Assembly (NCBI RefSeq): GCF_014873755.1
Contig: NZ_JADBEG010000001.1
Span: 4,094,501-4,158,500, forward strand
From: Amycolatopsis lexingtonensis
GTDB taxonomy: Bacteria; Actinomycetota; Actinomycetes; Mycobacteriales; Pseudonocardiaceae
DNA length: 64,000 nucleotides
Direction: 5' to 3'
Positions 22,768 to 50,509 of the stretch are shown here, piece by piece. Numbering within the stretch: position 1 is the stretch's first letter; every line of letters starts with the position of its first letter. The notes beneath the pieces are model-generated. The model saw nothing but the letters and a program-made list of their open reading frames with translations, was not told the DNA's origin and did no database searches. The translations under genes were made by a program, and so were the position numbers.

Positions 22768-25700
22768 TCAGGTGGCCTCGCCGTCGAGCGCCGCGCGGAC
22801 CAGGTCGTCGACCGACATGCCGTCGATGTCGGCGGCCTCGTCCCCGGCCGGGTCGGGCCCGGCCAGGCGGCGCAGGGTGTCCAGCACGCCGCTTTCGCGC
22901 AGGCGTGCCGGGGAAACGGCCGCGAGCAGGGCCCGCAGCTCGGAGTCCGGGTCCTCGGTGTCCGGGGCCAGCTGCCGCACCAGGTCGGCGGCGAGCACGG
23001 CCGGGGACGGCTGGTCGAACACGAGGGTCGCGGGCAGGTCGAGCCCGGTCGCCGCGGCGAGCTGGTTGCGCAGCTCGATCGCGGACAGCGAGTCGAAGCC
23101 GAGCCCGGAGAACGGCCGCTCCGGGTCGACCGCGTGCGGCCCGGCGAACCCGAGCACCGCGGCGACCTGGGTGCGGACGACGTCGAGCGCGGCTTTCTCG
23201 CGGTCGGCCGCCGGCAGCTTGCCCAGCCGCTCCCGCAGCACGACGCCGGCGTCGGCCGGTGCTTCCGCGGTGAGCCGGTGGTACTCCGGCAGGTCGGTCA
23301 GCAGCGGCGCCGGCCGGGCCGCGGTGAACGCGCGCAGGAAGGTGGCGTGGTCGATGTCGGCCACCACCGGCGCCGCGTCGGCCGCGAACACGACCTGCGC
23401 GAACGCGGCGAGCGCCAGCTCCGGCGCCACCGGCCGGGTGCCGGTGCGCTGGGCCCGGGCCGCCGCGTCGGCGGTCTCGGCCATGCCCGCCCGCCAAGCG
23501 CCCCAAGCGATCGAGGTGCCGGGCAGCCCGTCCGCGCGCCGCCGTTCGGCGACGGCGTCGAGCACGGCGTTCGCCGCGGCGTAGTTGGCCTGGCCGGCGT
23601 TGCCGACCGAGCTGGACGCCGAGGAGAACAGCGCGAAGACGTCGAGGTTCAGGTCCCGGGAGACGCGGTCGAGCACGAGCGCGGACTCGGCCTTCGCCGC
23701 GAACACGGCGTCGAACCGGTCCGGGCCGTAGCCCTCGAGCACGCCGTCGTCGAGGACACCGGCGGCGTGGATCACCGCGGTGACGTCCGGGGTCAGCAGG
23801 TCGCGGACGGCGGCCGGGTCGGTCAGGTCGCAGGCGACGACCGACGCCCGCGGGCCCAGGTCGGCCAGCAGCGCGACGGCGTCCGGGGTGTCCGGGCCGC
23901 GGCGGCCGGTGAGCACGACCCGCGCGGCGCCTTCGGCGAGTGCCCAGCGGGCGACGTGCTTGCCGAGCGCGCCGGTGCCGCCGGTGACGACGACGGTGCC
24001 GCGGGGCTGCCACGCCCGCGTCGGCTGACCGGCCGGAGCGCGCACGAGCCGCCGGGCGAACGCGCCCGCCGCGCGCACCGCGACCTGGTCTTCGGTCCCG
24101 GCGAGCACCGCGCCCAGCCGGGCGAAGGCGTGTTCGTCGAGGTCGGCGGGCAGGTCGGCGAGGCCGCCCCAGCGGTGCGGCTGCTCCAGCGCCGCGACTC
24201 GGCCGAGGCCCCAGAGCGCGGCCTGCGCGATCGAGGCGACCCGGTCCGACGGCACGGCGGTGACCGCGCCACGGGTCAGGCACCACAGCCGGGCCGCGCT
24301 GCCGGTGCCCGCGAGGGCCTGCAGCAAGGCGGTCGTGGCCGCGGCACCCGCGGTCGGCGTCGATTCGTCCAGGCCCAGCAGGGAAACGACGCCGGTGACA
24401 CCGTCGAGCGCCGCAGTCAAGGTCTCCGGGCCGGTGACCTCGGCACCGAGCGCGGTGACCACGCCGGCGACCCACGGGTCTTCGGCGAAGCCGGCGGGCA
24501 CGACGACCAGCCACTTGCCGTCCGGCACCGCACCCGGGGCACCGCCGAGCGGCTTCCACGTGACCCGGTACCGCAGCTCATCCACAGTGGACTGCTGGGC
24601 GCGCCGGGTTTGCAGGTCCAGCAAGGCGGGCAGCACGGCGTCGAGCGCGGCGCGGTCGACGTCGATCTCCTTGGCGAGCACGTCGGCGTCCAACCCGGAC
24701 AGGAAGTCCGGCGTGACGGCCGCGGCCGGGGCGTCCGGCCAGAACCGCTCGTGGTGGAACCGGTAGGTGGGCAGGTCGACCGGCCGGGCGCCGTCGAACA
24801 GGTCCGCCCACTCGACCGGCGTGCCGCCGACGTCGAGCCGGGCGAGTGCCGAGACGAGCGTCGGCTCGTCTTCGCGGCCGGCGCGCAGGGCGGCGGTCAC
24901 GGTGGCGGATTCGCCGGTCAGCGTCCGGGTGAGCGCGGCGAGCGTGCTGTCCGGGCCCAGTTCCAGGTACTTGGTGACGCCGAGCCCGTCGAGCGCGGCG
25001 ACGGCGCCGGCGAACAGCACCGGACGCCGGACGTGGTCGGCCCAGTACGCCGCCGTGCCCAGCTCGCCGGTGACCGGGGACGCGGTGACGGTGGACACGA
25101 CCGGGAGCGCCGGCGGGGCGAACTGCACCCCCGCGGCGATCCGCTCGAATTCGTCCCTCATCGCGTTCATATGCGACGAGTGAAACGCGTGGCTGACCCT
25201 TAAATGTCTAGTCTTTCGGCCGCGGGCCGCGACGAGGCCCGCGACGTCGGCGACCGCGTCCGGGTCACCCGAGACGACCACCGCTTCGGGTCCGTTGACC
25301 GCGGCGATCGACAACGGCCGCCCGCTGATCAGCTCTTCCGCCTCGGTCTCGGTGACCTGCAGCGCGGCCATCGCCCCGGCCGGCAGCTCCTGCATGAGCC
25401 GGCCGCGGGCGGCGACCAGCCGGGCCGCGTCGGCCAGCGACAGCACGCCCGCCGCGTGCGCGGCGGCGAACTCGCCGATCGAATGCCCGGCGAGGTAATC
25501 GGGCCGCACGCCCCACGACTCGACGAGCCGGTAGAGCGCGACCTCCACGGCGAACACCGCCGGTTGCGACCACCGGGTCTGGGCCAGCAGGTCGGCGTCG
25601 TCGCCGAAGACGACGTCCCGGAGCGGGCCGGGCAGGTCGAGATCCAGGTGCGCGCAGGCCTCGTCGAACGCGGCGGCGAACACCGGGAACCGCGCGTTGA

Positions 25701-49477: not shown

Positions 49478-50509
49478 TTACCAGACGGCGGCGGTGAGCG
49501 CCTCACCGAGGTCCAGCTCACGGCTGGTCTGGTTCAGGTCGGACTCGACCATCATCCGCATCAGTTCTTCGAAGGTCACGACCGGTTTCCAGCCGAGCTC
49601 GGTGCGGGCGCGCGTCGCGTCGGCGCAGAGCACCTCGACCTCGGCCGGGCGCACCAGGCTCGGGTCGATGACGACGTGGTCGCGCCAGTCGAGCCCGACG
49701 GAGGCGAACGCGATCTCGGCGGCCTCGCGGACGGTGTGCATCCGGCCGGTGCCGATGACGTAGTCGACGGCTTCGTCCTGCTGCAGCATCAGGTGCATGG
49801 CGCGCACGTAGTCGCCGGCGAAACCCCAGTCGCGGACCGCGTCGAGGTTGCCCAGCCGCAGTTCGTCCTGCACGCCGAGCTTGATCCGCGCGACCGCGCT
49901 GGAGATCTTGCGGGTGACGAACTCCATCCCGCGCCGCGGCGACTCGTGGTTGAACAGGATGCCCGAGACGCCGTACATCCCGTACGACTCGCGGTAGTTG
50001 CGGGTGATGTAGTGGCCGTAGGCCTTCGCGACGCCGTACGGGCTGCGCGGGTGCAGGATCGTCCGCTCGTTCTGCGGGGTTTCCGCGGCCTTGCCGAACA
50101 TCTCCGACGACGAAGCCTGGTAGAAGCGGATCCCGCCGCCGGTGGTGGGCCGCGACTTGTCGAGCCCGCAGACCATCCGGATCGCTTCGAGCACGCGCAG
50201 CGCGCCCATGCCGTTGACGTCGGAGGTGAGCTCGGCCTGCTGCCACGACATCGGGACGAAGGAGATCGCGCCCAGGTTGTAGACCTCGTCCGGCTGCACC
50301 AGGTCCACCGCCGCGACCAGGCTCGCCTGGTCCAGCAGGTCGCCGTTGACGAAGCTCAGCTCCGTGGCGAGCTTGCTGATGCGCAGCTTGCGTGGATTCG
50401 CCTGGCCGCGCACCAGGCCCCACACCTGGTACCCCAGGCCCAGCAGGTACTCGGCGAGGTAGGAGCCGTCCTGCCCCGTGATGCCCGTGATCAATGCTCG
50501 TTTCGTCAT
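49478..50509 (-). CDS. gmd: GDP-mannose 4,6-dehydratase (NysDIII/AmphDIII-type)
   Basis: This 343-aa short-chain dehydrogenase/reductase family enzyme converts GDP-D-mannose to GDP-4-keto-6-deoxy-D-mannose, the first committed step to the polyene amino sugar. The NADP-binding glycine motif is GITGQDGSYLAE (residues 9-20). The catalytic segment ASSSEMFG lies near 132-139, and the YxxxK pair is Tyr158 and Lys162 in SPYGVAKAYGH. HESPRRGMEFVTRKIS is typical of the GDP-mannose dehydratase subfamily. The ATG at 50509 is preceded by GGGAGA. A longer upstream reading frame exists but has no family similarity. It is transcribed toward the PKS genes and is divergent from the aminotransferase; nystatin-type clusters also place DIII beside I. 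It could alternatively serve GDP-rhamnose or perosamine synthesis. Confidence 0.93.
   Translation of the reverse strand: MTKRALITGITGQDGSYLAEYLLGLGYQVWGLVRGQANPRKLRISKLATELSFVNGDLLDQASLVAAVDLVQPDEVYNLGAISFVPMSWQQAELTSDVNGMGALRVLEAIRMVCGLDKSRPTTGGGIRFYQASSSEMFGKAAETPQNERTILHPRSPYGVAKAYGHYITRNYRESYGMYGVSGILFNHESPRRGMEFVTRKISSAVARIKLGVQDELRLGNLDAVRDWGFAGDYVRAMHLMLQQDEAVDYVIGTGRMHTVREAAEIAFASVGLDWRDHVVIDPSLVRPAEVEVLCADATRARTELGWKPVVTFEELMRMMVESDLNQTSRELDLGEALTAAVW

Follow-up and report, generated by a model that had tools for sequence, protein, structure and literature searches.

The 64,000-nt stretch of Amycolatopsis lexingtonensis DNA analyzed here (the window; bases 4094501-4158500 of a genome that forms a single contig of 10,737,921 bp) very probably represents the right-hand portion of a ~187-kb conserved block that encodes a modular type I polyketide synthase (PKS), whose predicted product is a meijiemycin-like linear hexaene polyol (C60), an antifungal bearing a GDP-mannose-derived aminosugar. 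A hexaene-polyol cluster is already in print for A. lexingtonensis DSM 44653. In the account given by a 2022 review (PMC8944477), it is "related to meijiemycin" and specifies a linear polyol; the Figure 13 legend and section 5 number 29 modules and place branches at C2, C12, C26, and C44, and the review notes FAAH motifs in the acyltransferase (AT) domains AT8, AT24, and AT29, a YASH motif in AT17, an AmphN homolog, and a second aminosugar gene set elsewhere. Among the 29 extension modules (M1-M29) that we found, the only ATs with a motif other than HAFH were those of M8 (FAAH), M17 (YASH), M24 (FAAH), and M29 (FAAH), and when carbon C1 is set at module 29 these correspond to C44, C26, C12, and C2, respectively. 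Since the four branch ATs agree with the review's description in both position and motif, we consider the cluster to be already known; strain, module number, branch sites, and AT motifs are alike, and no difference was noticed between the cluster and its published account. As a discovery it is therefore ordinary. Three results extend the review's account of the cluster: the conservation of the 29 modules among relatives, the grouping of AT8 with AT24 and AT29, and an association with a mannitol-type phosphotransferase system (PTS), the latter two being moderately interesting. A 29-module linear hexaene polyol, as opposed to an amphotericin analog, also changes the UV and mass signature that a chemist should seek.

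The analysis covered the window together with its flanks (bases 3954501-4094500 and 4158501-4178500), with genes called by codon-position GC. Eight PKS genes, all on the minus strand, specify an assembly line of 29 extension modules that starts with a loading module and ends in a thioesterase (TE). They contain 30 ketosynthase (KS), 30 AT, 28 ketoreductase (KR), and 30 acyl carrier protein (ACP) domains along with 21 dehydratase (DH) stretches; as two of the DHs are split, these stretches represent 19 domains. In window coordinates, where negative numbers lie to the left of the window, protein H (-97988 to -70929) comprises a KSQ loading module and M1-M5, each with DH and KR; protein A (22768-49341) comprises M6-M11; protein B (-2419 to 22741, i.e., 2..22741 inside the window and extending past its left edge; 8386 aa) M12-M16; protein C (-11864 to -2427) M17-M18; protein D (-23636 to -15330) M19-M20; protein E (-43624 to -23633) M21-M24; protein F (-63521 to -43869) M25-M28; and protein G (-69647 to -63525) M29 followed by the TE (PF00975, 54.4 bits; cut-off, 26.4). 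In protein B an enoylreductase (ER) occurs in M13 only and the DH of M12 is dead, while in proteins C and D the KR of M17 is dead and M19 has no KR. The six consecutive DH-KR modules M1-M6 have full-length DHs with the active-site H and D present. The hexaene would be assembled by protein H together with module 6. The rest of protein A (modules 7-11) would then supply a hydroxyl for the sugar, a branch, a hydroxyl, a ketone, and a hydroxyl, after which proteins B-F (M12-M28) and G (M29 and TE) would add 18 further extensions and release the chain. Docking ends, assigned by eye, fell into two classes, and with H fixed as first and G as last, 48 of 720 protein orders were class-compatible, the predicted colinear order among them.

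This layout was the same in every relative compared. The order of the 29 modules and their AT motifs were shared by A. lexingtonensis (G000) and genomes G061, G066, G069, and G041 (5/5 genomes), as were the dead domains judged by active-site residues, and gene content was shared from ~3984528 to 4171628 (~187 kb) in G061, G066, and G069; the stretch compared in G041 ends before the last gene of the block. Active-site residues are missing from the M12 and M19 DHs in all five genomes. Both appeared to be in decay: that of M12 is full length without the active-site His in G061 and G066 and shortened in G000, G069, and G041, and that of M19 retains its His in G061 and G066 only.

Within the window, protein A (22768..49341, minus strand; 8857 aa) is an AmphI-like hexamodule of six KS-AT-KR-ACP modules, in the order KS-AT-DH-KR-ACP, KS-AT-KR-ACP, a KR module with a non-HAFH AT, KS-AT-KR-ACP, a module with a dead KR, and KS-AT-KR-ACP. 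Domain profiles and active-site residues thus bore out the original prediction, made from the window's letters, of a six-module PKS with a DH only in its module 1 and a dead KR only in its module 5. The DH, confined to M6 and the last of the M1-M6 run, lies at 45928..46698 (minus strand) and has all of its active-site H, G, P, and D residues. The dead KR of M10 (27829..28263, minus strand) covers profile positions 41-177 only and lacks an intact NADP motif and the catalytic Tyr and Asn in 5/5 genomes; it would leave the ketone predicted for a hemiketal. The AT of the third module (M8; 37516..38472, minus strand) is, as had been proposed, the sole non-malonyl type among the six, though its motif is FAAH and not the YASH usual for methylmalonyl. 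Since the same pattern was present in all five genomes, it is not a product of chance.

The same order of DH-KR, KR, branch-AT KR, KR, dead KR, and KR, with a neighboring dehydratase gene, is found in AmphI and NysI (for the role of that dehydratase see section 2 of PMC8944477). We compared the KS domains of protein A to 558 KS domains from the best 120 of 528 candidate relatives, with domains of <380 residues dropped; 26 of these 120 relatives have the AmphI-like module order. AmphI-like proteins accounted for four of the top ten hits of M6 (all four at position -2), four of M7 (all four at -1), eight of M8 (five at 0), seven of M9 (six at +1), seven of M10 (all at +2), and seven of M11 (all at +3), with the remainder of the ten (6, 6, 2, 3, 3, and 3, respectively) coming from proteins not classed as AmphI-like. 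The KSs of M6 and M8-M11 therefore resemble those of the equivalent AmphI positions, and the matches were specific at M6, M8, M9, and M11. By this similarity ranking, the KS domains did not fall outside the polyene clade. The consecutive DH-KR modules anticipated elsewhere in the cluster were found as M1-M5 of protein H, which continue into M6, and the loading and DH-rich PKS (protein H), the TE (protein G), a P450, and a glycosyltransferase were likewise recovered, in a host, Amycolatopsis, that indeed lies outside Streptomyces.

The original prediction had read these features as a nystatin/amphotericin-type pathway. The gene content of the cluster speaks for such a macrolide of about 18 modules, with a macrolactone, an exocyclic carboxyl, and mycosamine: the AmphI-like hexamodule, dehydratase, aminotransferase, glycosyltransferase, and AmphN-like P450 are all present, and protein B continues with DH(dead)-KR, DH-ER-KR, and KR, a series that we take to resemble AmphJ. 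However, the nystatin line has 18 extension modules, and a macrolide cluster of the nystatin/amphotericin type has about 18, with the TE shortly after the AmphI/AmphJ part. The cluster described here has 29, of which 18 follow protein A, and its only TE comes after module 29. The hexamodule represents modules 6-11 of 29, as opposed to 9-14 of 18 in AmphI/NysI, its branch AT is of the FAAH type, and the hexaene lies at the methyl end, a layout identical in 5/5 genomes. The published reading is likewise that of a linear polyol (PMC8944477). A macrolide product is therefore highly improbable; since the line has 29 modules and a published linear-polyol reading, the label "nystatin/amphotericin-type" fits protein A alone, and what stands of the original prediction is an AmphI-like protein and a glycosylated polyene.

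Several observations nonetheless weigh against the linear hexaene polyol. The motif glycine of the M1 DH in protein H is replaced by D or E in 5/5 genomes, and because of this the product could be a pentaene instead of a hexaene. Linear release is taken by analogy from the published case, with the TE predicted to act hydrolytically, and the review gives no known product for the A. lexingtonensis cluster. The review describes meijiemycin itself (Streptomyces SD50) as a polyene polyol that is likewise linear and bears an aminosugar derived from GDP-mannose, in its case perosamine; the likeness drawn here is to this published description. As for the KS comparison, none of the best 120 relatives exceeded 8000 aa, so that true six-module AmphI/NysI proteins were absent from both the KS and the AT comparisons. 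M7 is unspecific, in that the AmphI-type position it matches (amph-1) is also the one most often matched by M2-M5, M23, M24, M26, and M28, and the position matched by M10 (amph+2) is shared with M19 and M27.

A gene for a DIII-type GDP-mannose 4,6-dehydratase adjoins protein A, as had been predicted (49478..50509, minus strand; 343 aa). It matched TIGR01472 with 393.7 bits (E 7e-118), slightly under the curated cut-off of 415, and is identical at 88% to its counterparts in G061 and G066, at 98% in G069, and at 100% in G041; alternative frames at window 49521-50576 (minus) and 49334-50617 (plus) gave no family match. It is followed by a DII-type, DegT-family GDP-ketosugar aminotransferase (50705..51760, plus strand; 351 aa). 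Together with the glycosyltransferase, which has relatives in A. eburnea (96%) and Amycolatopsis sp. CA-128772 (95%), these enzymes would make and attach mycosamine or perosamine, two sugars that the review describes as indistinguishable from sequence. Another member of the glycosyltransferase's family (43%) was observed at contig C1:10016331-10017674. About 20 kb from it is a further large PKS region, with DH hits at 10.04-10.14 Mb, which may correspond to the vancoresmycin-like cluster that the review names. The sole P450 of the block (C1:4170471-4171628) is given there as 64% identical to AmphN itself. Of its 15 relatives at 53-64% identity in the genus, 12 have the glycosyltransferase no more than 1.2 kb away, as expected of AmphN; in G001 the distance is 54 kb, and in G005 and G011 the two genes are on separate contigs. 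We rejected the idea that it is a housekeeping gene (90-91% identity in G061/G066), since those 12 relatives adjoin the glycosyltransferase.

The chemistry of the C44 branch may differ from that of AmphI. In AmphI-like proteins the carboxyl-bearing branch AT has YASH (26/26 among the best 120 relatives), whereas AT8 has FAAH in 5/5 genomes. In a tree of 50 ATs, AT8 paired with AT24 (support 95/88), and AT8, AT24, and AT29 formed a FAAH group (94/92, just below the starred level) separate from a group made up of the 26 YASH ATs and AT17 (95/85). Because AT8 is 61% identical to AT24 and at best 60% identical to a YASH AT, the case for AT8 rests on tree and motif. To the right of the window are genes for an O-methyltransferase, an FkbH protein (TIGR01686, 344 bits; cut-off, 147), an acyl-CoA dehydrogenase, a 91-aa ACP (PF00550, 21.9 bits; cut-off, 20.8), and a 3-hydroxyacyl-CoA dehydrogenase, which are 83-99% identical in the four other genomes. 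Judged by these families, the set fits methoxymalonyl-ACP formation and, with the AmphN-like P450, would tailor the branches. According to the review, antiSMASH assigns methoxymalonyl to AT24, and a methoxy at C44 and C2 is raised as a possibility; its passages on the cluster relate AT8 to AT24 by no tree, and the AT tree is an addition here. If AT24 loads methoxymalonyl, AT8 may well do so too, in which case the C44 branch would be a methoxy. The placement of AT8 thus bears on an explicit open question of the review, C44 methyl or methoxy; since AT8 may load methoxymalonyl like AT24, it also puts the usual job of an AmphN-like P450 at C44 in doubt, and because AT8 is of the FAAH type the conserved head group of the original prediction is doubtful at the branch.

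A rival explanation, which we place a little below an even balance, is that FAAH is a harmless motif change, that AT8 loads methylmalonyl, and that the AmphN-like P450 makes the usual C44 carboxyl. The review's figure legend draws a methyl at C44 (an antiSMASH prediction), the P450 has been retained at 90-98% identity in the four other genomes, and the identities just given barely separate AT24 from the best YASH match; against this stands the grouping of AT8 in the tree.

The cluster also contains the genes of a mannitol-type PTS. All on the minus strand, these encode HPr (51970..52254; TIGR01003 above cut-off), enzyme I (EI; 52279..53973; TIGR01417 above cut-off), a zinc-dependent polyol-type dehydrogenase (53981..55036; Pfam ADH_N and ADH_zinc_N, no NCBIfam model above cut-off), a fructose/mannitol-type EIIA (55033..55488; family match), EIIB (55478..55858; family match), a mannitol-specific EIIC (55821..56888; TIGR00851, 501 bits; cut-off, 468), and a PfkB-type 1-phosphofructokinase (57013..58404; TIGR03828 above cut-off, with the match beginning at residue 155 and the true start probably further left). 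The EIIC start is estimated, its reading frame being open to 57275 and the family match beginning at residue 137. A DeoR-type regulator is encoded at C1:4169705-4170466. With EIIC above its curated cut-off and EIIA, EIIB, EI, and HPr alongside, as in other mannitol PTS operons (TIGR00851), mannitol is the predicted substrate. Unlike those operons, a zinc-type dehydrogenase and PfkB replace the classic MtlD and the genes sit inside a polyene cluster. The PTS genes and DeoR were present in all five genomes with the 29-module cluster. Elsewhere in the G000 genome we found a second enzyme I and no second EIIC at E<=1e-70.

We surveyed 390 genomes of Pseudonocardiaceae, scoring at most 4 glycosyltransferase and 5 EIIC candidates per genome. 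The glycosyltransferase was found in 59 (E<=1e-110), EIIC in 66 (E<=1e-70), and both in 29, compared to 10.0 expected, a chance figure that, like others for linkage, ignores shared descent. In 20 of the 29 the two genes were on the same contig, and in 15 of these 20 they were within 150 kb (52-124 kb): G000, G001, G008, G017, G041, G046, G047, G054, G061, G066, G068, G069, G368, G369, and G370, which represent 5/7 lineages (grouped by architecture and identity, not by tree) and two genera. The genes were 0.6-6.3 Mb apart in the other five (G003, G026, G053, G057, and G367) and on different contigs in nine (G011, G050, G062, G072, G119, G123, G371, G382, and G384). In the 12 of 15 linked loci compared at the DNA level, PTS genes bordered or were embedded in loci that also encode a PKS, a dehydratase, an aminotransferase, a glycosyltransferase, and a P450; in the remaining three linkage is by coordinates only. 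Among the stretches compared, HPr and EI were confined to the 29-module family, G008, and G054. A class-wide sample of 394 genomes contained the glycosyltransferase in six (G000, G098, and four of family f21) and EIIC in 73. In this sample only G000 had both, 0/5 of the other glycosyltransferase genomes having EIIC, and a general link between PTS and polyene clusters is therefore disfavored. A literature search, judged on titles and abstract openings, found no published link between a mannitol PTS and a polyene cluster; the main text of the review lacks the word "phosphotransferase", and in its treatment of meijiemycin mannitol is mentioned once, as a feed among measures raising yield (PMC8944477).

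Whether the PTS is a working part of the locus or a bystander, an ordinary sugar operon next to or around which the polyene cluster came to lie, can be argued both ways, and we hold the bystander explanation to be as easily believed as doubted. Between G000 and G061/G066, enzyme I, the dehydrogenase, EIIA, EIIB, and DeoR are 89-96% and EIIC 94% identical, above most cluster genes (e.g., glycosyltransferase, 76-77%; aminotransferase, 80%), which favors a bystander, but HPr (81-82%) and PfkB (78-86%) are not above them. The five genomes in which the two genes lie far apart and the five class-wide glycosyltransferase genomes without EIIC also favor a bystander, as do PTS loci without the glycosyltransferase (e.g., G031, G060, G070, and G079); linkage within 150 kb in 15/20 same-contig genomes, across 5/7 lineages and two genera, argues against it. 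Mannitol is a main storage polyol of many fungi. On the linear hexaene polyol reading, the PTS operon would be a resident part of the polyene locus. Tentatively, and with rather more doubt than belief, we suggest a wider combination: that Pseudonocardiaceae polyene clusters adopted the mannitol PTS and DeoR as a working part, which imports mannitol for conversion via fructose phosphate to GDP-mannose for the aminosugar and signals that a fungus is nearby, and that C44 is methoxylated rather than carboxylated, with the AmphN-like P450 doing something else. If true, target sensing, sugar-donor supply, and weapon would be one locus. The recurrence of the mannitol PTS near polyene clusters also offers a cheap, testable handle on the silence of such clusters, through growth on mannitol, and on a possible tie between antifungal output and fungal food. 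Isolation sources, arbuscular mycorrhizal fungi for A. eburnea and equine placenta for A. lexingtonensis (as given in PMC11004387), provided no clear hint to the role of the PTS.

The right end of the window encodes three LuxR-type regulators on the minus strand, at 58507..59199 (family match), 59571..62381 (a large LuxR, or LAL, protein of 936 aa), and 62388..64000 (972 aa in all, extending past the right edge). Large LuxR-domain regulators were observed on both flanks of the cluster (C1:3985970-3996502, window 58507-65306, and C1:4165582-4168335), the DNA-binding domain being confirmed by Pfam in the proteins of 1600, 936, 972 (in part), and 917 aa and assigned by conservation only in the others. 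In G061 and G066 the order of the regulator genes on the left flank of the block is reversed. Another DH-rich PKS region was observed at C1:9.43-9.51 Mb of the genome.

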